DNA of 64,000 nucleotides. Source: Buxus sempervirens. Taxonomy: Eukaryota; Streptophyta; Magnoliopsida; Buxales; Buxaceae. The position numbers were made by a program, and so were the translations under genes. The first letter of the stretch is position 1. The number at the start of each line of letters is the position of its first letter. Location: assembly GCA_947561395.2 (NCBI GenBank), contig OX387193.1, positions 34,856,255 through 34,920,254 of the forward strand, in the 5' to 3' direction. The notes under the pieces are model-generated. The model worked only from the letters and a program-made list of their open reading frames with translations, did not search any database and was not told where the DNA came from. Below are positions 7,749-62,189 of the stretch, piece by piece.

Positions 7749-8437
7749 ACCTAAGCAAGAGGCTACACAAAAATACAAGCATGCAACCAACATTCAACAT
7801 ATGCACATAAAAAATCTCCCATTTCCATTTAAAAACAAAAAAGCTCAACAATGTTTTGAGTTAATGGTGTTACTTGCCTTTACCAAGCTACTAGTTGAAC
7901 CCTTGAGCTCTCCTAAGCTCAAATGTACATCCTCTTGCAAAAACGCCCAAAATCTAGGGTTTCAAGCTTTGGAATAATGGCTTCAATCCAATGCAAATAT
8001 TGAGTTATTGTTCTTCAATTTTTGTGCCCTTCACTTGGTTCTTCCTAAACCCAGCTATCACAATCTTTCTTTAACAATGGACATGAAGAAGAGGAGAAAA
8101 GAGTTAAGAGAAAGAAGAGGGCTCCTTGCCTCATACGTATGGGGTAAGAGTGAGTTTCTTTCTCTCCATAAAACTCCTCATTAACAAGTTTGCCATTCCT
8201 TCTTAAAATCTCCCATCTATTTACGACTTTGCCACCTTATTCTCAGCAACCACTATTTACAATCCTGCCATTGTCTCTACTCCTTCCTTATTTACAAGTT
8301 TGCCACTTAAAAAACTTACGAACAATATTACAGTTGTGACATTTTCTGCACGATCAAATAATAGTGTACTCAAACAAATTTAAGAAACTATCCAAGCTTA
8401 ACCTACCAAATAAAACTCACCTTTATTTATTCTTATC
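7749..8437. repeat. Spacer of the inverted repeat, shared with 10319-10730
   Basis: About 690 bp between the arms. Positions 7790-8190 recur as a direct copy at 10319-10730 (CAACATATGCACAT, CAAATGTACATCCT, GGGCTCCTT.CCTCATACG). On the minus strand GCAAGTAACACC at 7877 matches the donor-like block of the solo-LTR family. 8190-8437 is AT-rich with repeated TTTACAAGTTTGCCA words. Confidence 0.7.
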
Positions 8438-9678: not shown

Positions 9679-10735
9679 TGTAATATCCTGCAAGTTGTGC
9701 TAAAACTAAGCACCGGCTACTTCTGTACCAATAGTGTAATAAGTGCATAAAAAAAAAGCCAACATGGCCACCAACAAGGTGATACAAATCGGTTATCTAA
9801 TACTCATCTCTCCAAAATATACATGTCCAAAAACAACAAGTCTATACCAAAAAAATTAAAGAAAGACCCTAAGTAGGATGATAGAAGTCCTCACGATACC
9901 CAGGCGCTTTCTCTTTTCCCTTGTTGTCCTTAACCCCGGAAGCCGACGGGTCTGAAAACAAATCATTTGAAAACCGGTTGTGAGACAGAAGTCCCAACAT
10001 GCAACACTATGCATACAAGTTTAAAACACAGTTCATGCTTTATCACTTGTAAAATGATGATGCATTTCCATGAGTATCAAAATCGCAATCAAGGAACCAC
10101 AGTCTTGATAATCAATAGTTTCAATAGCAAACATGCAATATATGATAACCTCCATTCTCACTTTTCATGATCAATATGCATCAAAATAATTCACATTCTC
10201 AAGGTGACTAAAGCATCTCATCACATTACAGTAATTTGATCAATATGTTAATTATTCGTTTAGGTGGTTTTGTATATAACACCCATGACTACATCTAACC
10301 CCACCGGGTCAAGCATCTAACAGTCAACATATGCACATCCAAAATCAACCATTTCCACTCAAATCCGAAAATACATTTTAAAAACAAGAAAGCTCAACAA
10401 TACTTTGAGTTAAAGGTGTTACTTGCCTTTACCAAGCTCCTAGTTGAACCCTTGAGCTCTCCCAAGCTCAAATGTACATCCTATTGCAAAAACGCCCAAA
10501 ATCTAGGGTTTCAAGCTTTGGAACAATGGCTTCAATCCAATGCAAATGTTGAGTTCTTGTTCTTCAATTTTTGTGTCCTTCACTTGGATCTTCCAAAACC
10601 CAGCTATCACAATCTTGCTTCAACAATGGAGATGAAGAAGAGAGAAGAGAGTGAAGAGAAAGAAGAGGGCTCCTTTCCTCATACGCACGGGGCAAGAGTG
10701 AGCTTCTCTCTCTACATAGAACTCCTCATCATCAA
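9679..10735 (-). repeat. LTR-type repeat, copy B (compact, uninterrupted)
   Basis: Left end TGTAATATCC at 9679 resembles the TGTAACGCC terminus of the solo LTRs. It then contains the exon-like block, TCTGAAAAC at 9951, the 330-bp stretch shared with 285-614, and the part shared with 7790-8190. Donor-like GCAAGTAACACC is at 10436 and acceptor-like TTTTCAG at 9952 (minus strand), 485 bp apart. The right end cannot be placed exactly; no target duplication seen. Confidence 0.55.
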
Positions 10736-39643: not shown

Positions 39644-41322
39644 TGTAACGCCCCGAATTTGGGTTACATAATAAAACCGTAACTCGTTTTCAAAGGGTTA
39701 ATTTTTCACACAGGATTGCTATATCAAAGTGAAGAAAAACATGAAATAAACATATACCATAAAATCAGAATCAACTAAAACCCAACTCATTATAGAATAC
39801 CATATCTCTAATCTGAAACTCACATGAACCAAGCATCTACCCTATGATATCGTCCTCTCCAAAAGCAGCTGAAAACAAAATGGAATGAGATACGAATATC
39901 CCAGCAAGTAGTACATGCATGCACAAATACATTTTTCATTGTTATAAAACATGGATAAAATATAAAACATGTAAGAGTGGCGATAACACGATTAATCCGA
40001 GTAATTCCCCAATAATCTAGCAGTCAATATGATACAAATCCGTATATTCCATCATGTAAATCAAATCAGTAGTATCGATATCAAATCACGTATATAACCA
40101 TAAAACCAAGTATAACCATGTAACAACAGGTCGCTGAAACTAATATTCCCAAAAACAACCCAAATAGATATAGCTTCGATCATAACAAGTGTCAACATAG
40201 ACAATAGCCACATCATAGTCAAGTCCACGCCTCCATGTGTATATCCAGCCTACTCAAGGTTTCGGATATTGAAATGACGGCCTACTCCAAGTTTCGTCAT
40301 CCAATGCCGGCCTATTTCGGGTTTCGGCATTGACAACACTGGACTACTCATAGTATCGGTGCTGCTCTACATCGGTGGTGGAGATACAAATACCAATAAA
40401 CTCAATAAAGTAACAAACAAGTACCGATAAACCAGCTGACAAAACATCTTGTGTCAAAACAAGTCTCAACATAGGCCAATGTCATGTAGTTTACTTTAAT
40501 TGGGTAATTTAGCATGCCAGAGCGACATCCACACCTCCATGTACACAGTCCGGTCTACTCATAGTCCTAGTACTCTGAAATGATGGCCTACTCAGGGTTT
40601 CATCACCCAATGTCGACCTACTCCGGGTTTCGGCATTGAAAACCTAACCTACTATGGGTTTTGGGTTGCTCTACACTAGTCGTGGCAACACTCATGGCCA
40701 TGCAATTACAGTAATAAAGTCAACACATCACATTACTAAGCTTAAGTCATGGATCCAAGGCAAGCTAGACCAATTTAAGTAAGATTAAGCCATCAAGTAA
40801 GCCAACACGTAACCCAATGTGTTCAAGTATATAAACATGGGTAAATCATGACCAAATCCACTCTATCATGGAGGATCTCAAACACACTCCTTCAAGGCAA
40901 CTTTTCCATAACTGAAACAATATTTAAATCAATTCAATCATGATATAGAATAAGTAATCCAAATCTTTCCGAAAATCCCAAATTAGGCTAAATCTGCCCA
41001 AAGCAATAGAAAACCATAATTGTGCAATTTCAGAAGTTAAACATGTTATAAACCACTAATATAAGTGTATGAAACTTCAGATTTAATTAAAAATAGAAAA
41101 TGGAACATAATTCTCTAAATTCGTATATCAAGACCTATTTTAGAAGAACAAGCCTAAACTCTTCATTGTTTTGTATTTCAAAATAATTCTAGTGTGAACA
41201 TCTTCTATACATCAGTATTTTATTTTTTTACTTAAGTAGGATTTGGTTAAAATAAAACCCTTGTCAAAGTCCTCACCAATTAATTGAAATTCCCCTTTTC
41301 TGTGTTAATTTTTAGAACAGTT

Positions 41323-41539
41323 GCTCAACACATGGCCTAGACGATGTGTTGGGCGCCCTCTCTATTATTCCACACATATGGTCGCTCAACACATGGCCTA
41401 AGCGATGTGTTGGGCGCCCTCTCTATTATTCCACACATATGGTCGCTCAACACATTGCCTAGGCGATGTGTTGGGCACCCATTCAATATTTCCTAATATT
41501 GGTCGTTTGACCCAATTGCCTGAGTGATGGGTTGAGCGA
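41323..41539. repeat. 61-bp tandem repeat, about 3.5 units
   Basis: Units start near 41323, 41384, 41445 and 41506, each with GCTCAACACATGGCCTAG then GCGATGTGTTGGGCGCCC. The nested LTR begins exactly at the end of the last unit. Confidence 0.88.
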
Positions 41540-43372
41540 TGTAACGCCCCGGATCCGAGTCACATGAAAAACTCGTAACTCGTATCCAGAGGTTATTATA
41601 ATTAACAGGATCGCACTACCAGAGTAAAGAAAACATGAAACTAAATAGTTCTAAGCAATAGAGAGCGCTAAACAATCCCAAAGTAAAACTCACATGACTA
41701 AATTTCACTACCCGCAATTATCGGCTCTCCATACGTATCTGAAAAAAACAACCAGGCCTACTCAGGGTTTCTGGCTGCTCTACACCAGTCGTGGCAACAC
41801 TCCATGGCCATGCCATTACTCCAATAAAATAAAAGCATCACATTACTAAGCTTAAACATCTGGATCCAGGACAAGCTAGACCAAAACAGTAAAACATCGT
41901 ATAATCTCAATACCAATATCAAAGAAAAACCATTCATTCCACATCATGTAAAACCCATCACAGTTCATCACCTGTCCCTCTAGACCAAGCAGTATCTCAA
42001 GTACTTTCAGCATTTTCTCATTTTCGTAACACATGCCATTTGGAAACAAAACTCAATTCATTCATACCAAGGAAATCCTCACAACACATTTACAGTTTCC
42101 AAACACGTGAAACCAGAATAGAATAACTCCTCAATCAAAACAGTGTATAAAACAGAGTGAATGTAACTGGTAACTCTTAGTGGTTTGGCATCCGGCACAA
42201 CACTCATAAATAACCTAAATTCAACTTGGAAGCTTTTAAGAAGTTAACTAAATTTTCCTCTAATAATTTCATAGGCAAAGTAGATCCCAAAGTTCCCAAA
42301 CAAGTGAATAGTGAAGTGGTTTAACCCTTAAGACACCCAATTACTCTTGGCTAATTCAGATTTCCATTTCAGTAAGTAAAATAGGGTAGGCGCTCACTTC
42401 CTGAGGTGGGCGCTAGGTGGACGTCGGTCGGCGGTAAGAAAATTAGGGTAAAAGTTGCTTCCGCTCACTCGACGCTAGGTGAGCGCGAGATAGGCGCGAG
42501 CTGAGCGCCAGGTTCGCGCGAGCCGAGCGGCCGGTTTTCGGGTGCATGCGAGCTGAGCGCCAGGTTTGCGCGAGCTCGGCGGTAAGTCGAATTTTAACGG
42601 GGCGTCTAGCTAAGAGGTGAGCGGCAGTGGGCGCCGGGTTCGCGGATACCCCCTGCGATTTCCAGTTCTCTGTAAATTCGAGATCTATATCTCTGGCTGG
42701 TTTGTTTCGGTCTGTTATTGCTCCAATACCCTCCTAGTACTCCCAGAAGACTTCCCAACCACTTTTGGATTTAATCTAAATACATTTAATTTCAAGATAA
42801 AATTTCGGTCTCCGACTCTGTTTCATGCCATTCCAGAAAACCAGAAAACTCATACATCACTTAAAATACAAACCATGCATAAGAATAAGCCCACGAAAAC
42901 ATCAAACACAAAACCCAGTTGTAAATCAGTGCTACTCACCTTAGTATTGAAGACCTTCTTCAAACTTCCGGCCATCCTGGGGATTTGACTGCGAGACCTA
43001 ACCCGCCGGACTGCAGCCCTAACTTTCTCCTGAGCAGCAACTTTTCTCAAATCCCCGAAAACTTATAGGAGCTTCCTATTTATAGACATCGCAAAGTTTT
43101 GACCTAATTTCCCTTTTATTCCTCAAATCCCTGTTCTACCCTCTATTAGTGTAGGGTTTTCCCCGGATCTTAACTATTTACCCAATTTATTTCCGAGTCC
43201 GAATGTAACCTATTTATAATTCCACTTAAATTTCTTTAACACTAATGAACCACAAATTTCCTAGCAATAAATTCTTTCTTTTTATTTTATATATATATAT
43301 ATTTTTGACTTTTAATTTATTTTATTCTATTATTTTTATTATTATTATTTTTCTCAAAACTGGGGTTTTACA
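41540..43372 (-). mobile_element. Solo LTR, TGTAACGCC family, nested in copy 1
   Basis: TGTAACGCCCCGG at 41540 to GGGGTTTTACA ending 43372 (1,833 bp), flanked by AGCGA and AGTGA (four of five match). Same orientation as its host copy. Donor-like GTGAGTAGCAC at 42939 and acceptor-like TTTTTTCAG at 41739 on the minus strand. GC-rich island 42385-42640 with GAGCGC/GCGCGAG words. The open frame 42617-42988 on + has no known domain. Confidence 0.85.
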
Positions 43373-44358
43373 AGTGACCTCTGGTAAAACTCAGATCGAA
43401 CACAATCGTTCTCTATAAATAAAAAATCCTCACCTCTGTCTCAATTTTGCTCATTCAAAACACATCAACTAACTTCCTTAACCTCATTAAAACACCAATT
43501 CATGATCATTGATTTAATTAAACAACAATTCAATCGATTTTGCTAAATTATCCGATTATACGTATGAGATAGAATCCTCTTCAAACATGATCCAAATCTC
43601 ATTCAGACGAAATGAAAAGCTATAGATTAATGTTTGAAAGGTGCTACTTACTTCTAGGAAGCTCAATCAACACAATTCAATGCCTAGAACCTGAGAAGCT
43701 TCAGATTTCACTTTTCTCCACACTTTTCCCTTGTTTCATTCACCATTCACAACTGATCAGATCTGATCTAAACTATCTGAAACCCTCTCCTTAATTGTAA
43801 TATGATCAAGTTAATCTCTATTACCTGAGTTACAATTGATTTGAACGAATCCTTAAGTCTCCTCTACTCACGGTCACTAAAATGCTTTGTTCGCTTAACT
43901 CTTCAATTTCACTCCAGATCAGCCGTGAGGTTTCTCCTTCTTCTCAAACACTTCCAAATCTGGATCTGGTTTTCCCTCCTTGCTCTTCTTTTGATTTCCA
44001 TAAGGTTCTCAACTAACCAACAGATGAACCAACTAACTAACGACCTCCTTTTATACTCCCATGCTTTGCCGCCCAACTCTTTTAAACACACATTGATTTG
44101 CTGATTGCCACTCTACCATGCCAACCTACACTAAAACTATAAATTCTTCATTTAATTTAATTATAATATCTCTTGAATGCTCATACTACAAAATAAATAA
44201 CAACCATTTACCACAATTTATAATTCCTCTCTTCAATTAATCTCTGAAAATTCCCAAAATAGCCTTGCTCTCCATTTCCTAAGATTTCCACCAATATTAA
44301 TAATTAATATTACTAAAATAAATTCCAAATTTATAAATCAAAATTTTGGGGTTTTACA

Positions 44359-46998
44359 ATAAGTATCAAAGAAATCCATGTCTTCTTTTTGTTTATAGCC
44401 CTTAGCAACAAGACGGACTTTAAACTTATCAACTGTACCATCAAGTTTAAGTTTCTTTCTTATAACCCATTTACACCCTATGGTTTTGCATCCAAGTGGT
44501 AAGTTAACCAATTTCTAAGTTTGGTTATAAGTAAGAGAATCCATCTCATCATTGATGGCTTCTCTCCAAAATTCAGCATCTGGAGAAGAAAGTGCTTCAT
44601 CTAAGGATTTTGGATGTCCCTCAACCTTATAGATATAATAGTTAGATCCAAAATCCTTAGGAATTTTAGTTCTCTTACTTTTCCTAGGTTCCAATTCATT
44701 ATTATCATCTCTAGGTCTAATCAAAGTGGGTTCAGAAAATTTTATAAGTTCAGAGCCCCCACTATTCCTAGATTTAAAGGGAAACTTATCTTCAAAATAT
44801 TCAGCATCAACAGATTCAATTATAATATTGTTTTGAAGATCAAGGAACCTACAAGCCTTACTAGTTTGTGCATACCCTACGAATGCACATGTGGTAGTCC
44901 TATTTCCTAGTTTAGGTCTCTTTTGATCTGGTAATTTCACATATATGCTAAGCACCCCCAGACCTTAAGATAACCTAAATTAGGCTTTCTATCTTTCCAC
45001 AATTCATATGATGTAACCCTAGTCTTTTTATGAGGTACTCTATTAACAATATAACATGCAGTCAAAATAGCCCCTCCCCATAAATTATTAAGAGCTCCAG
45101 AACTCAATAACATAGCATTAGTTAGTTCAACTAATGTTCTATTTTTGCATTCTGCTACTCCATTTGAGGATGGAGAGTATGGGGGAGTAACCTCATGTAT
45201 GATTCCTAATGATTCAGCAAAAGCAATAAACTCATTAGATTCATACTTTCTTCCTCTGTAACTTCTCAATCTTTTGATTTTCTTATTATGCTGATTTTCA
45301 ACTTCTAACAAGAAGACCTTAAACATATCAAAAGCATCACTTTTATTTTTGATCAAATAAATATATGTATATTTGGAAAAGTTATCAATGAAAGAGATAA
45401 AGTATCTCTTTCCACCTCTAGTTAAAACACCATCTAACTCACATATATCATAATGAATAAGTTCTAACAATTTGGTGTTCTTTTCAACACTTTTAAAAGG
45501 CTTTCTAGTTATTTTTGACATGGCACATGATTTACATTTATCAAACATGTCATTCTCAAGTTTAGGAATTAAACCTAAATCACTCATGCATTTTACATAC
45601 TTGCTATTGATATGACATAAACAAGCATGCCAAAAATTAAAAGAAGAAAGCATGTAAATAGAAGAAGTAGATGCTTTATTCATATTCTCAATATTAAGTT
45701 TGAACATCCCATCACTTGCGTAGCCCTTCCCAACAAAGACACCTCTCTTTGTGATTACATATTGGTTAGACTCTATGGTCTGCCTAAACCCAGTCTTATT
45801 CAACAAGAATCCAGAAACCAAATTTTTCCTCATCTCTAGTGTATGAAGTACATCCTTCAAAATAAGGACACGACCAGATGTAAACTTGAGTTCTAAATCA
45901 CCAGAACCCAGAACAACAGTAGAAGATGAGAATCTCTAAGTAAGACAGATTTTTCCTTTTCCATTGGAGTGTAGGATTTGAACTAGTTTCTATCAAAACA
46001 GACATGCCTAGAGGCACCTGTATCAATCCATCACCCTTCACTGCCATTGAGGAGATTAACCTCAGTAATCATAGCCACAAAAGGCTCTTTGGTTACGTTA
46101 GCCTGTCCCACAGGTTCACATTTTCGGTATCTGTAGACACGAGTTGTATGCCCAAGTTTGCCACAACAATAGTAGAATATATTTTTGTTTTGCTTTCCAT
46201 GTTCATTTGTCTGCCTTGAAGGGGGTCCTTGGTTTGTATTCTTTCTGTTCCAGTTCTGACGCTGTTTGGTCTTCATATTCTTTCCTTTGGGTTTCAGTTG
46301 AGTAGGGGTAGAATGGTTGTGGATGTGGCTTGTTCTATATGACCAAATTCACCCTACTTTAAGGGTCCACATGATGTTCTTCATTTTTATCCTGAAGTCG
46401 GGCTTCCTCTTCTATCCTAAGTTTAGTAATTAGACTTTCCATGGAGAACTCTTTGGTTTTGTGCCCAAGTATAGTCTTAAACTCTTTCCATGAATGGGGT
46501 AATTTATCAATAACAGCAGCCACTCGGAACTGCTCATCTATATACATACCCTTAGATAGGATTTCATGGACTATAATCAACCATATGAGAAACTACAGAT
46601 TTATCATCAACCATATGAAATTTAAAGTATCTAGACACTGCATATTTTTTAGACCTAGCCTCTTTAGTGTCATATTTCTTTTGCAGTGCTCTCCACAATT
46701 CCTTAGCAATTTACATTTGCTTTAGAAATTGTAGAGGTCATCTGAGAGTGCATTCAGGATGTAATTCTTGCATTCATAATCACCATCTTTCCATTTGTTA
46801 ACAATAGATATGTATTCAAGGTCTTCTACAGTACGCCTTTGTTTCTTGGGGTCTTCATCGGTAATCACACAGGCTACCCTCATCAGATTAGACAAAAGAA
46901 CATCTTATGTTTCCATCTCCTAAAGCGTTCACCAGTAAACTTGAATGGTTTGTTCAAATCAGATGTGGAAGACACAGCCTTAACGTTCCCTCCCATCG
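44359..46998 (-). pseudogene. Copia gag, integrase and start of RT, broken
   Basis: Minus strand, from right to left: gag starting near 46998, a CCHC-type knuckle (FYYCCGKLGHTTRVYRYRK) at about 46180, GAG-pre-integrase (FWHACLCHINSKYVKCMSDL) and integrase core (YSPSSNGVAECKNRTLVELT) at 45860-44937, then the integrase end and RT linker (KSRNSGGSELI, PKSLDEALSSPDAEFWREAI) to 44515. Several frames; fossil. Confidence 0.9.
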
Positions 46999-47017
46999 GA
47001 TCGAATCACCTTAAAAT

Positions 47018-47564
47018 TATTGGTGATGGTATATAAAAATTGTTGTGATAAAGGAATACCTGTGATTCGCAAATCCAAACAAATTGTGCTTGTTGCGAAT
47101 ACTAAAAATAAAAAATCAGCAGAGATGGGTTGAGGCACAAACTAGGTCGCTCTTTTTAAGGCAATTCACACTCCTACGGGAAGAACAAATGTAGCCGTCG
47201 AACCCAAACGCGTCACCCCCAAGATACAACAGCCCAGTATCACCATTGTTAATGCTTGAATCCTCTACACATAGATCAGACAAAGAGTAGAAAAACCACA
47301 CCGATGCTTTACCCAATAAAGAGTAAATAAAAAAGGAGAGTTAGGGTTTTTTCACGAAAAACAAAACAGGCAAGAGAGAGAATTGAAAAAACGATAGAGA
47401 GAGACAGCGTTAAAAGTGAGATGAGGCATTAGTTTTTTTTTCTTTTTAATACAAGCATATTGTTTGCACAAACCAATGGACACCTTTTTTTTAGTTAAAA
47501 AGGTCCATCACATGCAAGCTAATAACAGGTTTAATAATAATTTTTTTATTTAAATACTCTAACA
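47018..47564 (-). repeat. Copia 5' LTR
   Basis: Matches the LTR at 34743-35598 at both ends and in several blocks. The gag start lies only a few tens of bases inside, so the leader is very short. Confidence 0.85.
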
Positions 47565-47569
47565 ACTTG

Positions 47570-49121
47570 TATGTAGCTCTGCCTCTAGCGAGAGGTCTAG
47601 TATTTGACTCCAGAGGATGAGTCTGCTACGGCAATTATTTGTATCCAAGGTGTAAAGTACATGCAGGGGAATTGTTGGGTAATCTTATCATATGTTGGGT
47701 CCTTTGATATTCGTATTTACACCATCACCTACACGTTTATCTTTGGATTCATTAGTTTTGAATGTTATTAAAGCAATAAGCTTGTGAAGAAGTAAGGACT
47801 AAATGAATATTGGTTTTAGGATATATTCGTTATTTAAAATTAGTTGGACTTTATTTGCCCCCTAAACTGCGCGTTTCTAATTTTGAAAGTCTGTTTGAGA
47901 CTGTGAAAGGTCATTGAGATATAGGGGTAAAGCGATGGGCGCTTAAGTTTGTTGATGACTACTAACAAGCCAATGTTGATGACACATATATCTAGAGCCA
48001 ATATTTAGAAATGAGTTACTTCTACAGAAGTATGAGCTCCAAAATCATATTTTAGAGGTCATATGTTAAATAGTGATTAGTGAAGAATATGACTTACAAA
48101 ATATCAAGAAAAAAATTGCTTAATTGAAAATTCTAAATGTTCCAACTAAACAAGTTTATGAAAATGATCTTTTAAATTTATGTCTGACTATTCAATCAAA
48201 ATCGTAGAGCGAACAATTAGTCTCATAAATAGTACTTTATCAATCAAATTACTTCGCTAAAAATCCTCAGATAAATATAGAAAAAACACACAATTAAAAA
48301 CCTATAGCTATGGTGCAAATAGCAGTCAAACCTCTTACAAGACAAGGATGGTTACAACATGTGTAAGTATCCAAATTTTGCTCAAGGCTAAGGGTGCTGG
48401 AAAATTTGCAAAATCCTAAATCAGTTTGAAATCAAGAACCATAAATTTTGAAATTTGAGGTAATTGGTCTCTTTTTTCTTTTTCTTTTTTTATTATTGAA
48501 AAGTAGACTTCGAGAATATTCCAATGCCACTAAATTTGCTCTAATCAAAGTCAAAACAGAGAAGATATGTCTAAAATAGTCTCAGGGGCAAAATTGTAAT
48601 TAATTGCATATTGGTTTTCCAAGTGGCAAATGAATTTAACACTTGGCAAAACATATATTATTTGAGGATAAACATAAAACAAAATATCTTGGTTACTTTA
48701 GAATTTAGAAATATAAAAATCTAAAATAACTTAATTAAAATATTAATAAAAGATGAAAATCTTAATAAATATATTAAAATATTAAAAATAAATTATTTTA
48801 ATAAAAAATCAATTCAGCAGCCAAAACAGTGGTTTTAGATAAAAATGCACTGCACCGTGCTCAGAGCACGGTGTCAATTGCACTATGCTTGAAGCATGAT
48901 GTAAAAGAAAATACAGTTGCACCATGCCACTGTTCTGGGGAGGCTCATTTTTCCATTTTGCTCCCATCTCCTGCTGCAGAAAATCTCTTGACTACTTTTG
49001 ATCAGGGAGTGCACTCCAACTGCTGTGAAATAATTTTGGGAACTTCAAACACCTCCCAACTCATCTCCTTTGCTAAGGTAAGTGAGCATGTCCCCATCTT
49101 TCATGCATAGAACTCCATACC
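47570..49121. other. Intergenic, no gene seen
   Basis: AT-rich. The only notable items are two short hairpins at 48853-48900. Frame 48829-49110 covers them and has no known domain. Confidence 0.45.
48853..48873. repeat. Perfect 10-bp inverted repeat
   Basis: CACCGTGCTC-A-GAGCACGGTG, followed at about 48881-48902 by a weaker one around ATGCTTGAAGCAT. Function unknown. Confidence 0.75.
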
Positions 49122-49151
49122 TAGGGTTGCTTATCGAGCCAACACGGGCAC
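49122..49151 (+). mobile_element. hAT-like element left end
   Basis: TAGGGTTGCTTATCGAGCC then AACACGGGCAC; continues after the inserted solo LTR at 54457 as GGCACGGTACGGCCCAGC. The matching right end was not found. Confidence 0.45.
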
Positions 49152-52100
49152 TGTAACGCCCTGAATCTGTGTTGTTCATTAAAGATATAACACATCTCAC
49201 GGAATGTTATGTATGGGCCCAAAAATGCCTACACCAAACTCATTTTCATAAATGAGTGACTTATATTAGAGTGCGGAAATTTAAAATATCTATTAAAGTG
49301 TGGAAACTAAACCAATCCATCAAAATATATCAATCATAAAGTCTGATAACAACATTAATCCCAATCAAAATACAAATTTGACAATAGTTCTATCAAATCA
49401 ACATCTTAACCTACAATGTCTAAGGAAGATAATAATTCTCCTCTTTATATGTAAAATCCTAGATTTTAGTAACTAGACTAATTGGTTAATAATATGCAGG
49501 AGATGAGATCTTGGTTCAACCTGGAGGAGTTCAAGATGAACCGGATATGATAGGAGAGCCTATATAAGGTGAGCTCTTAATTATTGATCAAATATAATTT
49601 TAATATATTAATTATTGTGCAATTATATTATATTAGTAAGAATAAAGTGAGAATTGAACAAGGAGAATAAAAGAATTTGGTCGAACCCAAGGATAGTGGG
49701 TTGACTCAAGGGATTGAGATGGTTTAAGAATAAGATGGTTTGATTTAAGTGGGTTTAATGAAGGAGGGGCAAATTAGTAAAAGACTTTAAATAAATTAAA
49801 CAAAGGCCTAGTAGTGCATGGAGTTATGCACGTCCAGCACAAAATTAGAAACCAGCCGTGAGGTTTCCTTGCTTGTTTCCCATCCTTTCTCTTAGTTGCC
49901 TTGTGATAAAAACCTAAACCCTAAACAAATTGTGGGAGCCGTCTTAGAGAAGAAGGAGGAGTATTTTCGTGCATAGAGAACTCAGGTAAGAACAAGTTCT
50001 GTTCTGGAGATTTTCATATGTTAAAGAGTTTTAAAAGTGTGATTCTTAACCCAGACGTGATCGGACTTGTTGGGATTGTTTGACAAAACTTTGGGGTGAT
50101 ATTTCAAGGCTCTTAGAGAAGATTTAAGTTCCTAAAACCAGGTAAGTAGTCCTTTGACACTTACATAAAATCTAAATTCGCGTTTAGACGATATTCATGG
50201 TTATTCGCTGTTTGATGCATTGATTTCGTTATTTATGATGTTTTATGTGTTGGGAATTGTTCTAGCATGTGTATAATGTATTTTGGAATGATTTAGAATG
50301 GTTTTTATGCATTGATTATTGAGTTGTGGAATTTTTATTAAATTTCGCAAAGTTACGGATTTTTCACGTATCAGACCGCCTGAGCAGTCGCTCGAGCGAT
50401 CTATGTATATAGTTGAAAACCTGAGAGCAATTTTACCCAGATTGTACTACCACTAAAACAGTCGCTCGAGCGACCTATCAAGCGACATACCCTAAAATTA
50501 CCTGTTTTGTAAGGCCGATCGAGCACCCTTGGCCGCTCGAGCGACCATTCTGTCAAATTTTGGGAAAATTGACTTTTCAACCTAGTTTTCACTAAGGAAG
50601 TGGTTCTATTTAATTTTAGCCTATGTACCATCAAGATTGGGGTATTTGGGAAGTGTTTGTATTGGTGGATGTTTAAAATTAAATTTTATAAAGATTTTGG
50701 GTAGATGTTTCTAAAGAAGAACTTTTACATGATTCTATTGTTCCAAAAGGTTTTAATTTGCACCAAGGTTGGTTTTGTGTGTTCATACACCTGTTTGGGT
50801 GATATGAAGGTATTGTGTACGTTGATGGAGTCGATACACATTCAGGACATATTGACCCGTTGAAACCTAGAGTTTTGGACATATGACTTGGTACATTCTG
50901 TTTGGTTTTTGGGTCACGTGGTGTAACAAGGCAGGTGCCTAATTTATTGTATCCCGCATGGGTGGATTTGGTTATAGATATGGTTACGTATTTGGTGGGT
51001 GTCATTGAGAAGTATGTCCATTACCTTGGTTGATTTTCTCATTGTTGAGTGGGCTTAGCAGTTATGTGGATCCATAGAATAGCTAGTAAGTGAAATGTGT
51101 ATTAGAGGGGTTTGAATTCTGTGTCTGAGGCATTTCATCATCTCGAGGATGGTACCGTTCCTGGATTGGTCGATCGCTACGTTATCCACTCCTGGATTGG
51201 TTGGGCCATACATGCTAACTCATGGTTGGGTTCTTCCGTTGGTGTTGAATAGCCAGACTGCAGGGCGGCTGGTCCATCGTAATTCGGTTAGGTAGCATAT
51301 TGGCACATGTCTACTCTCTTTATCTGGTATACTATTTCATGAGTCCCATGAGGTGGACAAATTGTATTTCAATGTTATCTTGATTCTTATTATGGTTATT
51401 CGGATTAAGCGATTGCATATTTTATTATGGTCAACTATTTGCATGACTGCTTACTGAGATAGTGTTTCTCATATTATTGTTTTATCGGTTTTGTTTTCAG
51501 ATATTCCTGGAGAGAACGTTGCCGGGGTAGAGACACCGGGAGAATACTGTGAATACCAGTAGGAAGATTATTTTATTCCTATGTAGGACTTAGAGAGACA
51601 TTTAGATTTATTTTCTTAGAGATTATTTTCAGTATTTTGATTAAGGATTTTGATTGTCATTTAAAGGATGATTGGTATCTTTAATTCACACCTTGGTGGA
51701 TGTTATTTATGTTATTTAGTTGAACCCTTTCCAGACTTCATATATGAAAAATAAAAGGATTATTTTGGTAGTTTAATTCCGCGCTTCTGAATGATGATTT
51801 TATTTCCGCACTCTGATATAATAAATGAAGTTGTTTAAGTCTGGAATAGTATTTTGGGCCATTTTCCCTAACGAACCAGATTTGGGTTTATGTGTTTAAA
51901 TAAACCTGGATCCAGGGCGTTACACTATCTGAATCCTCCGACTCTACCCCGGCAATCATGTCCTCTCCAAGATTGTCTGAATACAAACAAAACAAAAATG
52001 GAATGAGATAAAAATATCGCAGCAAGTAGTACATGCATGCTAAAATATTTTATCACATTTCTAAATCATGCCATGATAAAGAATTACAGTAAAATCAATA

Positions 52101-54456
52101 CTAACTCATGTAGAATTCAGATAAACCAATACGATCTCAATAACATCGATAATCAAGTAAAAACAAAAATAATCCTAAATCAAGTATCATCATGGGCCAA
52201 TGTTATACAATTCACTTTCATTGGGTAATTAACGTGTCGAAGCCAAAATCTACACCTCCATGTACACAATCCAGTCTACTTCGGGTTTTAGATTCTGAAA
52301 TGACGGCCTACCCAGGGTTTCATCATCAAATGTCAGGCTACTCCGAGTTTCGGGATTAACAACACCGGCCTACTCAGGGTTTCGGTGCTACTCTACACCG
52401 GTCGTAGCAACACTCATGGATATGCAATTACATCAATAAAGTCAACACATTACACTACTAAGCTTAAGCAATGGATGAGATCCAAGTCAAGCTAAACCAA
52501 AATAGCTTAAGACAAAATCAATATGTATTCAAATGTGCTCAACATGAAATCATGGGTTAATCAAGACGACAAATCCACCCCATCATAGAGGATTTCAAGT
52601 ACATGCCCTTCAAGGCGAATATCAATATCCAAAAACAAATCTTATATCAAATCATTCATGAGACAAAACATATAATCCAAATCTGTAAAAATAACTCACA
52701 ATAAACCAAATCCAATGCAAGTTTTCCAATCAAGTCCATTGTAAACCCAAGTAATTCAAAATATAGCTCAAAACACCGATTTCCCAAATCTAACCAGAAT
52801 TATGTTCTTAGAGGTTTATTTACCTTAAACATGTACAAGTATGAGAATTATACAAGTTGAAAACCTTAGAATCCTTACGAGTTAACTTGAAAACATTATA
52901 CCCATTTGAAACCCCAAAATGAACTAATTTGGAGGAATAGGTGGACAAGTATTTGGTATAAACTCATTCATACAATTGTCCTTTAGAAACACCTTAGAAA
53001 TGATCTCAGAACGACGTTACAAGTGGTAGAATCAAAATAAACTCATTCTATAATATTTTGGAACCAAAAGTCTCTCAAGAACTTAGTTTAGTAGAATGTA
53101 CCCAAACTCTTTGTTAAATGAAATGTTAATATAATTCCTGTGCAAGTACTTCTAAAATACCTAAATCTTATTTGTACATAGGTTGGATTTGAGTAAAAAC
53201 AATTCCATAGTCAAAATTACCTCAATTTGGAAAAATATGAAAATCTGTCTTGGGCACTCGAGCGTCCATGCATGCGTTAGAAGGTTTTAAAATCTAGAAA
53301 TGGGCGCTTGGCAGAGCGCTCGAGCATCGGGCAGAGCGCTCAGCTTAACAGGTTTTGACAACTTTCGGGTTATCAGTTTCAAAATAAAACACAGGCGGGG
53401 CGCTCAAGCACGATTCTAGACGCTCAGTCAAAGCACATATTTGTGAACAGTTTTCCAAATTTTCTAAGTTTTCAAAAATTAAACTACCAAAACCTAATTT
53501 AATCATTCTAAAATCATACGAACATCTTCTAAAATACTAATAGAAGCTTTCTAATTAAATCAACAACAATTTAACATGATTTATAAATCATATCTATATT
53601 TTCTCCTCAAATAGCTCAAAACTACTAAAACCTGAGTTCAACCATTCAATCTCAAATCACTTGCATCAAATCCAAAAATTCTAGGATAAAACTCGTTTAG
53701 AAAGGTGCTACTTACCTCTAGGAAGATTAGATCTGCTCCTGGAAGTCTGAATTTTTGAGATCTTCTTCTTCCTTCATCGAATTCCCCATTTTTAATGCAA
53801 TTTCCAAAAACCTCAAAGAATTATTCCCAGATCTACCTAGATCTTATCAAACACCTACGAATTCTCTATAATACATCATAATTCAATAATTAAGATCATT
53901 CTTACCTAATCCTTTCCAGATCTGAACAATTTCCTTCAACTTCTCTCGGAATTCTTCACCAACTCAACTTCTGAATTTGATTCTCTCTTCAGATTTCAAC
54001 TCAGCAACGATCGACAAGGTTAACTTCCTTTAATTTCTTCTCTCCAGGTCTGTATCTGAGCTCCTTTCCTTCTTCTTCTTCTTCTTCTGTTCTCCAGAAG
54101 ATTCCTAACTAGCCAAAACAGAAATCCAACTAACTCCTCTTATTTATACCCAATGGTTTTGCCACCTAAACACCCTTTCAAAGTTCCTTATGATCTGCTA
54201 CCTTGTCACTCTACCAATTTCCCCTACATATCCAAAGCCAAATCAATAATAAATCACATGATTTAATACTAATTATTAACATTATTGAATTATAATAATT
54301 TATTTACCTCATTTAAGTAAATCCCCTTCATTAAATTTCTAGAAATTCCATAAATATCCTCATTCTCCTTTTTCTGAAAATTTTAAAACAATAATAATAA
54401 TTATTATTCGCCATAATCAAATTTTAATTTATTAATTAGAATTTAGGGATTTTACA
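49152..54456 (-). mobile_element. Solo LTR, TGTAACGCC family, outer copy 2
   Basis: TGTAACGCCC at 49152 to GGATTTTACA ending 54456, duplication GGCAC at 49147-49151 and 54457-54461. Net about 2.8 kb without the inverted nested copy at 49450-51924. Minus-strand donor-like GTAAGTAGCACC at 53715, acceptor-like block at 51977. Minisatellite 52255-52400 and GC-rich island with GCGCTCGAGC words 53250-53430. No protein domain. Confidence 0.85.
49450..51924 (+). mobile_element. Solo LTR, same family, inverted, nested in copy 2
   Basis: TGTAAAATCC at 49450 to GGGCGTTACA ending 51924 (2,475 bp). Flanking 5-mers TTATA and CTATC agree only in part. Sense direction is +: TATATAAGG at about 49560, donor-like CAG|GTAAGTAGTCC at 50142, GC-rich CGCTCGAGCG palindromes 50373-50545, minisatellite (CTCCTGGATTGGT units) 51130-51290, TACTGAGAT and TTTTCAG| at 51500. 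Closely similar to 56651-59146. Confidence 0.82.
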
Positions 54457-55464
54457 GGCACGGTACGGCCCAGCATGCTTAAAGCGTGCTCGGCTCTGCT
54501 CGTGCTCGCCAGGCACAGTGGCTCGGCGCTCACGTGCTAGCCCAACGGCAGGCACTCGTGCGTGGCCTGAAAAACGGCTAGCCGTTCCCACCCCTCCCCC
54601 CACCACCAAAAGTGTTTTTACCTTCTTTTTTTTACAATTTTACCCCCAACAGCTATATGACAGCCATATTAGGGGGGCATATTTGTAATGACTGTAAATG
54701 GCCATTTCTACCCTTCTAACAACCAAATAACAGCTATATTTGAAGGTAGAGGTGGTAAAAAGCCACTTTTGGTTTTCTATAAATAGGCCTAATCCTTCCC
54801 ACTCCAAACCACACCTCTTCAAGACTTCAACAATCTCTCATCTCTTCTAAGAGTCTAATTTAAAGTTTTTGCCAATGGCCAACAAAGTGCTCACATGGCC
54901 GACTATTGGGCAAATCTTTAAACAAGACTCTTACAATGTTATCTTTTTTTTTTCTTTCTTTCTTCATTTTCTTTTTGTCCTAGTAATCAAGTTCTATTTC
55001 AAAATGGTTTTTCACATCTAAATAGAGTTTGAACTCTATTTAGACATGAAGAGCCATTTTGAAAAAACTCTTCAATTCTAAACAAGGTAAGGTTTTTCAA
55101 AGCATAGGGATGCAAATTGGGCTGAGCCAACACGGACACAGTTTTGTTTATGTGTATTAGCTATTGACATGTGGCTCACTAGGGTTTTGGGTCAACCCAT
55201 AACCCAAGATGGGCCTTGGGCCCGATGGCCTAGATTGAGTACTAGTGGGCCTTCCAACGAGGCCCACCCATTCCTACCAGCCCACTTTGATTAATTAAAA
55301 TAAGAATCCACTTAATTAAGGGCCATAGCCTTTGAGGCCCAACTAAAGCCCAACTGGAAACATGCTTGGATAGTTTAGATGGTTTGGCCGAAGACATTGG
55401 GTGTAGGCCTATCAGGCCCCATCTCTTTATTTAAAGAGAGCCCATTCAAACAAATTGAGAGAGG
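54457..55464 (+). mobile_element. hAT-like remnant with GC-rich subterminal region and TATA box
   Basis: Continues the end at 49122: a GC-rich stretch with GCTCGTGCTCGCC and CACGTGCTAGCCC (54462-54590), then TATAAATA at 54779-54786, as in the promoter region of a plant gene or transposase. No transposase frame follows. A second direct end, TAGGGATGCAAATTGGGC, starts at 55105 and runs into gypsy-type LTR sequence about 40 bp later. An imperfect hairpin lies at 54997-55064. Confidence 0.4.
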
Positions 55465-56025
55465 GAAGGGATACACATCCCCTTTACCCTGAAAAGTCTT
55501 AGGCCTTCAAGCCTAAGCCTAGGAGATGGGCCCCAAGCCCATCCCTAGTCCAACTGAATCTAGATCATAACATAGATAATAAAATTAAGGTTACAGTGAG
55601 CCCACCCAGAGGGCCCACAAATCATTCAACCCACTAAATAAGCATAAATATTAATCTTAACCCCTTTTAACCTCAATCTGATAAAATCAATCAAACTTAA
55701 AACCAAAACCCTAAAGGGCTTTTTAGGTTTAGATCAAGCCCACAAAAGGGACATGTGGGTTACACCTTAGCCCATCTGGGATTCCACAGGCCTTCCTACA
55801 GGGCCCACCCAATCAAACCAAGATCACCTAAATAAAGAAGATAAAATCAGATAAAAGGGGACCTACACCAGTTAAGTGGTCCTCACATAAGACCTAATCA
55901 AAATGGATGCATATCTGCTTAGGACGGGTGAAATAAAAAAATTGACTCTACCGAACTTAACTAGGATGACCCATGGGACCCGTCACCCGACAGGGCGGAC
56001 CGGGGTGTCTACGGATGTAGCGCCC
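55465..56025 (+). mobile_element. Gypsy-type LTR piece, left arm, first part
   Basis: Rich in GGGCCCACC and AGCCCA words. It is the reverse complement of the right edge of the window (63440-64000): GGGAAGGGATACACATCCCC here against the end of the window. Interrupted at 56026 by a solo LTR; continues at 62195. Confidence 0.65.
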
Positions 56026-59000
56026 CGGATCCGAGTTGTTCATTAAAGATATAACCTGCCTCACGGTAACACTATGCATGAGCCCATAGCAAGACAATGC
56101 CATAATATAATTCAACAATTATACTAATATCAGAGTGCGGAAACTAAAAGGGAAATAAAACAACTAAACTAAAACTTTATTACTTCATAAATAAAAGTGC
56201 TAATGATCCTCAAAATAAACTTCTTAATTCAATATATCAAATCTGAAATTTTAAATGGCAACTACCTATTCTAGACACTTCTCAACCTATCATAAAAGAA
56301 ATAACTCCTATACAAATCTCTTAATAGAATATAAAAGAAAACTAATAATCCATAAGATGCTCATCAAGGTCCTTTGCTGTACCCTCTGTATTATCTACCC
56401 CAACTTGCACGTCATCTTCAAGAGTATATGAAAACAAATATTAAAAACAAGGGTGTGATAAAAATCTCAGCAAGTAGCAACATGCATGCTATAAAACAAT
56501 CCATATAATTTATAAAACATTTCATAAGGTACAATGATTAAACCAAAGTTCATAATCCAGAAAATACCATATAAAGTCCAAAATCCAACAAGTTATAATC
56601 AAAAACCAACATAATATTCACACAACAAACCACACAACTGTGACATCACATGTAAAATCCCAGATTTTAGTGATAAATAAAACTAATTATTAAATAGGCT
56701 TATTGGGTTAATAATATGCAGGAGATAAGATATTGGTTCAAACCGAAGGAGTTTAAAGTGAACCGGAGGAGAACTTGGAGAGCTAATCTAAGGTGAGATT
56801 ATTCTTCAAGGAATTTTAGTTATAATTATTCAGATTATTAAAGTGAAGAGTAAATTAAAAATAAGGAATTAAGGGAGTTGGTCGAACCCAAAGAGGAATT
56901 GGGTTGACCTGGAATTAGTTGGTTTAAGGTTAAAGGCTTGATTGTAAATTGGTTTAATGAAGGAAGGGTATTTAAGTAAAAGACTTTAAAACAATTAAAA
57001 TAACCTAGCTATATGCATGAGTTATGCACGACCAACACATAGAGAAACAGCCGCACGTCCCTTCTATTCTCTTGTTTCTTCTCTTTGCTTCTTGTGATAA
57101 AAAACCTAACCCTAAACAACCTTTGGAGCTAATCTTTCAGAAGGAAAAGAGAGGATTTTTCATTCAAAAACTAAGGTAAGAGATAAGATAGAAAACAGTT
57201 TCTGTTTTGTGAGTTTAAGCATGTTTAAGAGTTCTAAAGGAGTGATTTTTGAATCAGACGAGATCAAGGCTTTGTGTGATTGTTGGAGCATATTTGTGGT
57301 GATATCTTAGAGCTTTTAGGAGAGGTTTTAGTTCCTAAAAACAAGTAGTCCCTTTAAACTTGCACAAAAATATTTTCGTGTTTCTTCGATATCCGTGATT
57401 ATCCGGAGGTTTGATGAGTTGCTTGCGTGATTTATGATGATTTATTTGTTGGAAATTGTTCTAACATGTTTTTAAAGTATTTTAGAATGCTTTAGAATAG
57501 ATTTGATGCATTGGATATTGAGTTGTGGAATTTTTATAGAATTTCACAAAAGTTCAGATTTTCTTCGTATCGGGCTGCCCGAGCAGTCGCTCGAGCGCCC
57601 TTTGTATTTTTTTAGAACCCAAGAGCAATTTTTCCATATTGAATTGACGCCCGAACAGTCGCTCAAGCGATCCATCGAGCAACCAACCCTGAAATGACCA
57701 AATTGTTAGGCCGTTCGAGCACCCAACTGCCGCTCGAGCGCCCTGTCTGTCAGATTTCTGAAAAGTTATCTTTCAACCTTGTTTTTCACTATGGAAGTGT
57801 TTTTATCCAACTTTAACCTATGTACCATCAAGTTTAGGGTACTTAGGGATTGTTTGCATTGGCGAATGTTTAAAATTCAATTTTATAAAGATTTTGGGTA
57901 GATGTTTCTAAAGAAGCACTTTTACTTGATACTGTTGTTCTAAATGATTATATTTCAAACCAAAGTTGTTTTTGTGAGTTCATACACCTGTATTAGGGTG
58001 ATATGAAGGTATTTGGTGCATTGATGGAGTCGATACACATCCGGGACATATTTGCCCGTTGAAACCTGGAGTTTGGACATATAAATTGGTACATCTTGTT
58101 TTGGTTTTGGGTCACAGTTGTGACAAGGCAGGTGCCTGTTTTCTTGGTTTCTGCAGGGCGGATTTGGTGATACAAATAAGGTTTTGTATTTGTGGGCGTT
58201 ATTGAGAAGTATGTCCATTCCCTAATTTGCTTTTCCACTGTTGAGTGGGCTTAGCGGTTATATGGATCCATAGAATAGCTAGTAAGTGAAATGTTTATTA
58301 GAGGGGTTTGAATTCTGTGTCATAGGCATTCCATCATCTCGAGGGTGGTACCGTTCCTGGATAGGTCGGTTGCTACGTTACCCACTCCTGAATAGGTTGG
58401 GCTGTACATGCTAACTCATGGTTAGGTTCTTCCGTTGGTGTTGAATAGCCAAACTACAGGGCAGTTGGTCCACTGTAATTCGATTATGTAGCATATTGGC
58501 GCATGTCTATTCTCATTTTCTGGTTTACTATTTCATGAGCCCCATAAGGTGAACAATTGGATTTGATCTGTTTTTATTATATTGTTGTTTGTATTGTATT
58601 ATGGTTAATCTGATTAAGCGTTGCATATTTTATTGTGGTCAACTATTTGCATGACTACTTACTGAGATGTTGTTTCTCACATTATTATTTATTGGTTTTG
58701 TTTTCAGATATTCCTGGAGAGGACGTTGCTGGGGTAGAGACTCCGGAGGATTACTGTGATTATCAGGAAGATGATTATTTCATTCCTGTGTAGGTCCAGG
58801 AGGACATGGAGATTTGATTTAGCTTTTTGTTTAGGGATTGACATTAGATTATTTTATTTGAGCATTTTGATGTTATTTGAGGGATTATTGGAAAATTTTA
58901 TTTACATAACTTTACTAGATGTCGCTTGTCTTATTTAGTTGAACCTTTCTAGACTTTATGAATATACTAATATTGGATTATTATTGGTGGTTAAATTCCA

Positions 59001-62000
59001 TGGTTCTTGAAGATTTGTCATTTATTTCCACACTCTGATATATTTAATGGAATTGTTCAAGTCTGGATTAGTTGTTTTGGGCTATTATACTAACGAATCA
59101 GATTTGGGTTTATGTTTTTCAATAAACTTCGATCCAGGGCGTTACATCACAAGACTCGTGAAATAAGAAATCTTTGAGAAGTTTAATACCCGATTCCAAA
59201 TGCTACTTCCAGACATATGCTAGCCGAGATACACGAACTACAACATAGGGGAATACCCACTCAGATATAAGGATTAAGGTTGGCATGTACAACCACACTT
59301 CCCACCGAGCTACGCGGATCAAGGAATATGATTACTGCGAGTTCCAACTTCCCACCGAGATACACGGATCAAGGAAGAGGATTGCTGAGATACACGGACT
59401 AAATTGCATAAATGGACCACGGGGTTAAATAAACAAAGAACGATCCACTCCACTATCTAGCTAAACTATGGATCCATAACAAGCTATGCCCACTAGACAC
59501 AAGGCAATCAAATACTCAAACATATTATTTTAGATACCAAAAACATCATCAATAATCCACAAGTCAATTCCAAGATACATGGAGGGAATCCAAGTCTCAA
59601 ACCCAAGCTACATGAGTGAGAATAACTACAAGTCAACTCTAAGATACATGGAGGAAAAACCACGTCTCAAACCCAAGCTACTAGAGTGAGAAATTCACTA
59701 CTCCAAGGTACACGGAGGAAAATAATAACAATAATAATCCACAAGCCAACTCCAAGATACATAGAGGAAATCCAAGTCTCAAACCCAAGCTACATGAGTA
59801 AGAAATTCACCACTCTGAGGTACACGGAGGAAAATAATAACAATTCCGCCTTAACAATTATGAAAACATCTTTAGGTAGGTTAAATACAAGTGTATGAAC
59901 CAGTAAAATCAAACCAAGTTAAAAGGAAAACGATTTGGAACAATAAACTCAAATAAAAGTCATTTTAGTAGAACGTACCCAAATTCTTTATAAAAATCCA
60001 AATAAATCATCAGCCGGTGCAAACACTCTCAAAACACCCTAATCTTATTGGTTCATGACTTAGAATTCAATAAAAACAATTTTATAATCAAAAACTAGGT
60101 CGAAAGATAAAATTTCAGAAATCTGTTAGAGAGCGCTCGAGGGCTGACGGGCGACTTGTCAGGCGCTCTTAGAAATCTGGGTTCAGGTTTTGGTTGCTTG
60201 GTGTGGCACTCGAGTGATGTCTCGGGCGCTCAGTTTAATCAAAATTTCTAGGTTTCAGGTTCTAAATTTTCTAGAAAAAACACAAACGGGGCGCCTTCAA
60301 TGGCGCTCGAGCGTCATTGCGGGCGTCCGTTGATTTTCTAAAAATTCTGGGTTTTACGAAACTTTACAAATTTTCTACTTATTTTTCAGTGAAAACCTCT
60401 TCAAAATACCTTCCAAAACTTTAGAATCTATTTGGGTATTCAAAGATATCATATGCAAATACAAAATAAATTTTAATGAATTATTATAGAATTTTAATCA
60501 TGTAAAGGTAAAATTTGTCGCCTACGAACAAGTAATATTCTAAATATCATAACTCGGTCATTTCTTAACCAAATTACCTAAAATTTGATTCATTGGATTC
60601 TTGACTCATAGTCAAAAAATAATTTATAGCAGTTTTTCAAAATTCTATGTGGTTAATTAATTATAGCTTTTTAAAGTTAACTTTTAATAAAAATCTATGC
60701 ATACCAGTAAGTAATAAAAAGTAAGTAAAAATTACTAAACGGTAGAATATTATTTAAATTATATTTTTACATGAAACTAGACACAAAAACCTACAACTTT
60801 TATGGAGATCAAATAACCTTAACCTCTCTCTAACTAAGTGTAACAATTCCATCTAATCAAAAAATAGCTGCAAAAATTTGGTTTTACGAAATTTTGTGAG
60901 TTTTCTATTTCTTTTTCTAAAACTTTTTTCTGTTATTCAAGATCACTTCTAATACATCTAAAATCATTCTCTAAACGAAATAAATCATTATTAAACAATT
61001 CTTAACAAATCAAATCATCCAAAATCATGTTTTTCATCCAAATATCAAAGTAGACAAAATTCTATCAAGAAGGAGAAGATATAATTTTTTCCATGCTTTA
61101 AACCTCAATCAAAAGCTTCCAAATCAACCTAAACATGTTTCTAAATCATCACAAATCCAAAGAACACAATATTTTTCGTCTGAATAATAAACCATGCAAG
61201 TTTTCTAAGATAAAAGGTTACTACTTGCCTTAAGATTGCAAAATCCTTCTTCTTTTTCAATAACCTCAAGTATAGCTGATTTTCTGAAATTCTCGCACAA
61301 CTCTAGGGATCTCCAAACACAATCCCCACCATTCAGATTGAAGAATCACCAGTCTAGAATAAAACCTCCAAATTTGAGGCCAATTCAACGGCTAGATCTC
61401 TGTAAATCGTCATTCGAAGTTTGCTGGTCGGACTTCCCTGCAACTTATCTTTTTCTCTAAAGTCTCTTATTTTCTCTCTACTTTTCCAGCCTTTATGTAC
61501 GAATTTCTCTCCCCTTTTCTCCTCCCAATTCAATTAATGGAAACCCTAAACCTTCCCTAATGCCTTACTTTTATAGGCTCACTCAAATACAAGTTCTAAT
61601 TGGATTAGGAAACCTTCTAACTAGGATTCCTAATTTTATTTGAAAGACTTTCCTATCTTATCCCTCCTTCTAATTATTCCCTCTTAAATCTAACTCATAA
61701 GAAACTTCTATTTTCTTTATTTTCGTGCTAATTTAATTCCTTATTTTAAAATATTACTAAAACACCCCAAAACTCCTTTTATACTCAAATTTAAGGCCCT
61801 TAATTAAGTATAATTACAATTATGTCATTTTCTCATCTTTTACACTATATATTTGGCTATTTTATCCAAATTTAATCTAACTTAAGTGTAATTGCTTATT
61901 TCAATCTCAATAAATATTTATTTTATTAATTTAATATTTGGCCATTGGGAAAAGACTAAAATACCTTTTTTCATTATTATACTATATTTGACCATTAGAT

Positions 62001-62189
62001 TTATTTCTAAATATCCAGATTTAATCTCCTCATTATTTCTCTTTATAATATGAGTGTGAATTATAATTTCAATCTTCCAAATACTTAGATTAAATATTTA
62101 TCTATTGATATTTAAATTTTTTTATTTTATTTCTTCTAATATTCAGATTTACAATTATATTATTATTTCCTAAAATTCGGGATTCTACA
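56026..62189 (-). mobile_element. Solo LTR, TGTAACGCC family, outer copy 3
   Basis: TGTAGCGCCCCGG at 56026 to GGGATTCTACA ending 62189, perfect duplication ACGGA at 56021-56025 and 62190-62194. Net about 3.66 kb without the inverted copy at 56651-59146. Minus-strand GC-type donor-like block GCAAGTAGTAACC at 61228. Minisatellites with GAGATACACGGATCAAGGA units at 59220-59410 and CCAAGATACATGGAGG units at 59570-59840. GC-rich island 60125-60330. No protein domain. Confidence 0.87.
56651..59146 (+). mobile_element. Solo LTR, same family, inverted, nested in copy 3
   Basis: TGTAAAATCCC at 56651 to GGGCGTTACA ending 59146 (2,496 bp), perfect duplication TCACA at 56646-56650 and 59147-59151. Collinear with 49450-51924: donor-like CTAAG|GTAAG at 57176, CGCTCGAGCG island 57580-57745, minisatellite 58330-58480, TTTTCAG| at 58707. 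Small open frames such as 57503-57697 are not genes. Confidence 0.88.

Follow-up and report, generated by a model that had tools for sequence, protein, structure and literature searches.

Intron-like signals inside the long terminal repeats of chromoviruses in Buxus sempervirens, and a possible separation of messenger and genomic RNA

How one retrotransposon RNA can be both messenger and genome is an old question, to which experimental answers exist for few plant elements. It is raised by a stretch of 64,000 nucleotides (nt) of the Buxus sempervirens genome (assembly GCA_947561395.2, contig OX387193.1, positions 34,856,255 to 34,920,254 of the forward strand; hereafter the window), where several repeats between positions 39,644 and 62,189 carry a splice-donor-like block and, further along the same strand, a branch-like site and a T-rich acceptor. 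A first-pass annotation had taken these signals for an intron spliced within a family of solo long terminal repeats (LTRs). Ty3/gypsy chromoviruses are the source of these LTRs, and we consider it probable that a leader initiated in the LTR is spliced to give the messenger RNA (mRNA) for Gag-Pol, while the unspliced RNA would serve as the genome.

The genome searched was the 676.5 Mb assembly that holds the window. On the sense strand the LTR copies start with TGTAAAACCCC and end with GGGGCGTTACA, and the pattern of the 3' terminus has 2,567 exact matches genome-wide; the same pattern read backwards has none. The LTRs have TG...CA ends. Our sample from contig C1 comprises its first 20 LTRs in list order (L036-L055), of which 10 have a 5' end and an identical 5-base-pair (bp) flanking duplication and are therefore solo LTRs. 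L005/L007 is a full element of two LTRs with 5.9 kb between them, TGGTATCAGAG behind the first and a purine tract ahead of the second. This primer-binding site, of the initiator-methionine type, lies behind the LTRs of L005, L042, L054 and L035, and the purine tract TAGGGGGAAAGAA^TG precedes those of L007 and L013 (^ marks a boundary). The name solo-LTR family holds for a part of the copies; the chromoviruses also have full-length members, both autonomous and non-autonomous.

The autonomous relative L034/L035, searched in pieces, contains Retrotrans_gag, RVP_2, RVT_1, RT_RNaseH and Integrase_H2C2 domains above cut-off. In L034 the integrase core (rve) scores just under its cut-off, and the Chromo domain reaches 27.7 bits against a cut-off of 25.1, in a frame that differs from that of pol in this copy. 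The Ty3/gypsy domain order together with a chromodomain identifies L034 as a chromovirus. Its Gag start was matched at 150 scored places among 3,871 candidates, and an open frame of 1,566 residues is present at a number of these places. The lineage is probably Del/Tekay, since terminus, LTR length and chromodomain all fit the survey of PMC4029996. In the sections of that survey on LTRs, those of Del/Tekay measure 1.1-4.8 kb and have G at -6 and GGG at -8 to -10 of the 3' terminus; the L005 LTR measures 2,348 bp, and GGGGCGTTACA has the same G and GGG at these positions. The 5' termini here are TGTAAAACCC and TGTAAGACCC; the conserved Del/Tekay 5' type is published as a logo. Two further arrangements were seen among the relatives. 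A non-autonomous element (C9:22728421-22736700) has an antisense frame of 394 residues that matches Transposase_32, a putative plant transposon protein (L033:987-2171, minus strand), and at C1:7759178-7762546 (L042/L043) two near-identical LTR 3' ends are inverted, facing outward, about 3.4 kb apart.

The acceptor block consists of GCATGCAT..GCTRCTYRCTGRGATATTCGTATCTCA, which forms a hairpin, a T-rich tract and CAG^AT. Among the 20 C1 LTRs, 19 have it, about 180-330 nt ahead of their end, and L049 is without it; the AG is intact in 17 of the 20 (in L041 and L044 the block has CAA for CAG). Exact matches to the core GATATTCGTATCTCA...TTTTCAG number 7,478 genome-wide, a count of sites rather than elements; the reversed pattern has none, and no match to the core was found in viral contigs. 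Conservation was measured in bins of 15 columns after the 3' ends of 18 LTRs had been aligned, 17 from the C1 sample and copy A of the window. Blocks no more conserved than the rest of the LTR would have refuted the first-pass annotation; on the intron side the block stands out from its flank, as the six bins (90 columns) ahead of the acceptor average 1.08-1.58 bits, against 0.55-0.86 bits in the next 16 bins upstream. On the exon side, the bins from the acceptor to the LTR end are likewise fairly conserved (0.76-1.71 bits). The hairpin is paired in 94.4% of alignment cells, with a double change in one aligned sequence; a C-G pair with a shifted loop, judged by eye on folds, occurs in L036 and in the old copy at 9952. 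CTTAC or CTCAC ahead of the hairpin would suit the branch-site consensus.

The donor motif is AG^G(T/C)RAGTRG. Between 1,300 and 2,000 nt ahead of the LTR end, a range chosen after typical distances had been seen, AGG[TC][AG]AGT[AG]G occurs in 8 of 20 LTRs in sense and in one in antisense (shuffles, 0.18). A donor score of at least 9.9, from approximate weights, is reached in the same range by 9 of 20 in sense and one in antisense (shuffles, 1.69). By motif and position a donor was assigned in 15 of the 20 LTRs, 14 of them at 1.4-2.2 kb from the end and that of L040 at 3.8 kb; the information profile around these donors is biased, since they were partly chosen by motif. Mean T content rises from 0.20 in the 60 nt before the donor to 0.45 in the 60 nt after it. 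The rise is found in 11 of the 12 donor-assigned LTRs measured, L049 falling slightly. GAA, AAG and AGA are enriched in the last 104 nt of exon 1, and GTA is the poorest trinucleotide. GC replaces GT in L041, L046, L049, copy E of the window (61228) and two old relatives in Nrap introns (7877 and near 10426), with otherwise strong flanks; for the three window sites this narrows the earlier reading G(T/C) to GC. GC donors are unusually frequent at these sites, and the flanking consensus is strong every time.

A GT or GC donor, a branch-like site, a T-rich tract, an AG acceptor and a step in composition, the features of a U2-type intron, are all present at the sequence level. An intron-like architecture within the LTR has good sequence support and is retained in divergent families. 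A coding role of the exons was considered and rejected, since exon 1 had no consistent open frame over the 13 LTRs read. As a separate observation, exon 2 of one LTR class (L040, L050, L054, L020 and window 51501-51570 and 58708-58777) can be read in several families as a similar peptide, roughly GEDDIxGVExxxDYxEYRxEDYFVE; a stop follows it in some copies, and exon 1 has no matching frame.

A further acceptor lies directly before gag. Of 12 loci in the autonomous family, 11 have the Gag start behind TTTTGTGCTTA(C/T)AG^GTATACATGG, L062 being without a match to the searched string. This acceptor is placed 5-6 nt ahead of the Gag ATG, beyond the primer-binding site, and 148-149 nt beyond the LTR end where that end was located (10 of the 11 loci). 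In the divergent, decayed family L069 the acceptor before gag reads GTTTTGTTGTATTTCAG^TTGATATGG. TTTCAG stands 5-6 nt ahead of such a Gag start at 14 places, the reversed pattern at none. A splice from the LTR donor into this acceptor would remove the LTR end and the primer-binding site. In L035 the 250 nt ahead of the donor are free of ATG, and 51 ATGs lie from the donor to the start codon of Gag; this suggests that ribosomes scanning the leader would depend on the splice. The intron proposed earlier is borne out in its sequence architecture. The acceptor directly before gag, however, speaks for splicing of the leader across the element as a whole, in contrast to splicing confined to the LTR. 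In splicing of the BARE/EVADE type an intron downstream of gag or inside it shortens the frame to a short Gag; the sites studied here differ in that they precede gag.

In the mechanism that we infer, transcription of the chromovirus RNA would start within the LTR, and its leader would bear the introns. Exon 1 would be short, T-poor and purine-rich, ending at the strong donor AG^G(T/C)RAGTRG. The intron, of about 1.2-1.9 kb, would end at the block of branch site, hairpin, T tract and CAG, still within the LTR, and autonomous members would have the further acceptor ahead of the Gag ATG. RNA spliced to the gag-proximal acceptor would have a short leader without a primer-binding site, so that it could act only as mRNA, for Gag-Pol. 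Unspliced RNA would retain the unique 5' region (U5) and the primer-binding site, and would be the genome and template for new copies.

Several results weigh against this mechanism. Donors could be assigned in only 15 of the 20 LTRs, and 10 of 15 LTRs show a TATA-like box, 113-294 nt ahead of the donor. Covariation in the hairpin is no higher than in shuffles (100 of 500). The autonomous family has no clear second donor. The LTR signals are also retained in L005 and L042, non-autonomous elements where no gag was seen. ATG is not scarce in the first 45 nt of exon 2 (16 found, 13.9 expected, 15 LTRs); the leader would therefore be nearly ATG-free only with exon 2 skipped. Depletion of ATG in exon 1 (15 found against 44.9 expected, 15 LTRs) was considered as a leader signature and is weakened by the count in exon 2 and by that in the unique 3' region (U3), where ATG is also under expectation; several trinucleotides are more depleted than ATG. 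Finally, spliced forms were sought in the genome with up to 3 mismatches. The exon 1-exon 2 junction of the autonomous type, the exon 1-gag junction and the spliced form of the B family (that of window copy B, the unspliced counterpart of which was not counted) each gave no match, and the unspliced boundary of the autonomous type has 89 genomic copies. A wider junction pattern, also without matches, forbids T at -5 and is hence blind to this exon 1. Intronless copies as proof of splicing were thus rejected, with no spliced form against 89 unspliced boundaries of one type. Their lack fits a spliced RNA that is not copied and, equally, an absence of splicing.

Splicing might instead use one long intron from the LTR donor to the gag acceptor, the internal block serving otherwise, for example as the site at which donors further upstream are joined to the 3' LTR. 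The gag-proximal acceptor seen in both autonomous families, the lack of a clear second donor in the autonomous family and an exon 2 that is not poor in ATG and often holds one would suit this. However, no stretch measured on the intron side is more conserved than the internal block, which is kept in non-autonomous LTRs, and one LTR class has a strong second donor-like CA(T/G)^GTGAGTT about 45 nt past it; we regard the long intron as unlikely. The block near the LTR 3' end might also direct RNA 3'-end formation or another cis function, with the donor-like motif unrelated. Signals for 3' ends too have hairpins and U-rich tracts, and sequence by itself does not discriminate. This explanation is nevertheless decidedly improbable, as 17 of 20 LTRs have CAG at the end of the tract, two independent signals (the donor and the step in composition) are splice-like, and a separate acceptor precedes gag. 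That the blocks are functionless and alike through shared ancestry and chance would accord with homologous copies, short motifs and donors partly chosen by motif, but is very improbable, as conservation is local rather than general, the donor is kept beside exon-1 sequences that can no longer be aligned, and reversed and shuffled controls are near zero.

Homology between families also breaks at the donor. Introns of the B/L005 family, the autonomous L020 group and L021 are mostly 93-97% alike, starting at the donor to the base, and their exon-1 ends are unrelated to one another. Among pairs of 21 donors, 13 are alike on the intron side only, 4 on the exon side only, 2 on both and 191 on neither. 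Near-identical introns that begin at the exact donor base behind unrelated exons 1 were noted in L005, L020-L032 and at window position 42939. The exchange of exon 1 would be explained if reverse transcription switched templates at the donor motif that the families share. A fuller picture would combine retrovirus-like leader splicing of the Del/Tekay type (a donor and first acceptor in the LTR, a second acceptor before gag, removal of the primer-binding site, separate translated and replicated RNAs) with the donor as the boundary at which promoter and exon 1 are swapped by template switching. We put this combination forward tentatively, as possible and somewhat short of probable.

The features in the window are listed in Table 1; a donor position is that of the first intron base and an acceptor position that of the last. 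The donors reported earlier at 43651, 42939, 53715 and 61228 (minus) and 50142 (plus), and the acceptors at 39869, 41739 and 51977 (minus) and 51500 and 58707 (plus), lie in the sequence exactly there. For the Nrap relatives, the donor at 7877 stands, as do the acceptors at 310 and 9952, both of which have a block of branch site, hairpin and T tract like that of the LTRs; the donor given as 10436 belongs about 10 nt further along, near 10426. The ordered donor and block said to be common to the copies are present in A, C and D; B has its block deleted, the D2 donor is without its GT, and no matching acceptor block was found in E with the pattern used. Compared with its relatives, copy B lacks about 500 bp just ahead of the acceptor (query overlap 1618-1625).

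Table 1. Splice-like signals and LTR copies in the window (window positions).
Copy	Feature	Position	Strand	Remark
A	Solo LTR	39644..44358	minus	5-bp duplication CTTAT on both sides; copy B inserted
A	TATA-like box TATAAAA	44049..44055	minus	about 400 nt ahead of donor; function presumed
A	Donor AGAA^GTAAGTAGCACC	43650..43651	minus	
A	Branch-like and hairpin block TACTACTTGCTGGGATATTCGTATCTCATTCCA	39881..39913	minus	
A	T-rich tract and acceptor TTTTGTTTTCAG^	39869..39880	minus	
A	Second donor-like CAT^GTGAGTT	39822..39823	minus	45 nt past acceptor; function presumed
B	LTR nested in A	41540..43372	minus	duplication TCACT/TCGCT
B	TATA-like box TATAAATA	43077..43084	minus	145 nt ahead of donor; same spacing in L005
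B	Donor CTAAG^GTGAGTAGCAC	42938..42939	minus	
B	Remnant TTTTTTTCAG at deletion junction	41739..41748	minus	branch/hairpin block lost
C	Donor AGAG^GTAAGTAGCACC	53714..53715	minus	5' end of C at 54456
C	Branch/hairpin/T-tract block and acceptor	51977..52031	minus	C cut slightly further on by end of copy D
D	Donor CCAG^GTAAGTAGTCC	50142..50143	plus	LTR about 49450-51924
D	Branch/hairpin/T-tract block and acceptor	51445..51500	plus	
D2	Acceptor block	58653..58707	plus	LTR about 56651-59146; donor GT lost
E	GC donor TTAAG^GCAAGTAGTAACC	61227..61228	minus	E spans 62189-56016, D2 nested within
Old relative, Nrap intron	Acceptor block	9952..10015	minus	GC donor near 10426
Old relative, Nrap intron	Acceptor block	310..372	minus	
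Old relative, Nrap intron	GC donor AAAG^GCAAGTAACACC	7876..7877	minus	

Two further features of these copies were noted. Copy A contains three tandem units of 61 bp, 77-95% alike (41320-41502), and the intron of copy B has a visibly CG-rich stretch 240-500 nt past the donor (42440-42700, minus strand). The latter may be the variable 5' CpG island known from Del LTRs, which the LTR description in PMC4029996 divides into a variable CpG-rich 5' stretch and a conserved 3' stretch.

If the proposed splicing is true, an abundant plant lineage would solve the dilemma of messenger and genome by an intron in its LTR, and thousands of LTRs in the genome would bear a promoter, a first exon and a donor able to splice onto neighbouring genes. 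In a literature search that covered titles and the starts of abstracts, with most subscription journals outside its scope, we recognised no LTR-internal intron in a plant element. Deltaretrovirus donors sit inside the LTR. In the splicing described for such viruses in passages of PMC1839114, on bovine leukaemia virus, the donor is likewise in the transcribed leader and the genome is the unspliced RNA, but the acceptors lie in internal genes, whereas here the donor and one acceptor are in the LTR and another precedes gag. The pregenomic RNA of cauliflower mosaic virus (PMC4498817) resembles our elements, as its 5' region has several donors with a single acceptor; the virus differs in having no LTR. 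The Del/Tekay survey PMC4029996 describes the same chromovirus domains, long LTRs and 3' terminus with GGG at -8 to -10; its main text contains neither 'intron' nor 'splic' and reports no splice sites. Spliced isoforms from two sunflower elements appear in passages of PMC7730604, and those of PMC4558846 describe a tapeworm element spliced from solo LTRs, which is not a conserved LTR intron. BARE1 of barley, as presented in sections of PMC3735527, also separates the RNA pools for translation and replication, but it is a Ty1/copia element whose intron, just beyond the gag domain and outside the LTR, yields a Gag-only RNA. EVADE and Ogre are likewise plant LTR elements with functional introns, placed by the relevant sections of PMC12786077 and PMC6317226 in the protein-coding or intergenic part, outside the LTR. 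Ogre, EVADE and BARE1 represent the known plant introns in LTR elements, and a conserved intron within the LTR itself would be the new part.

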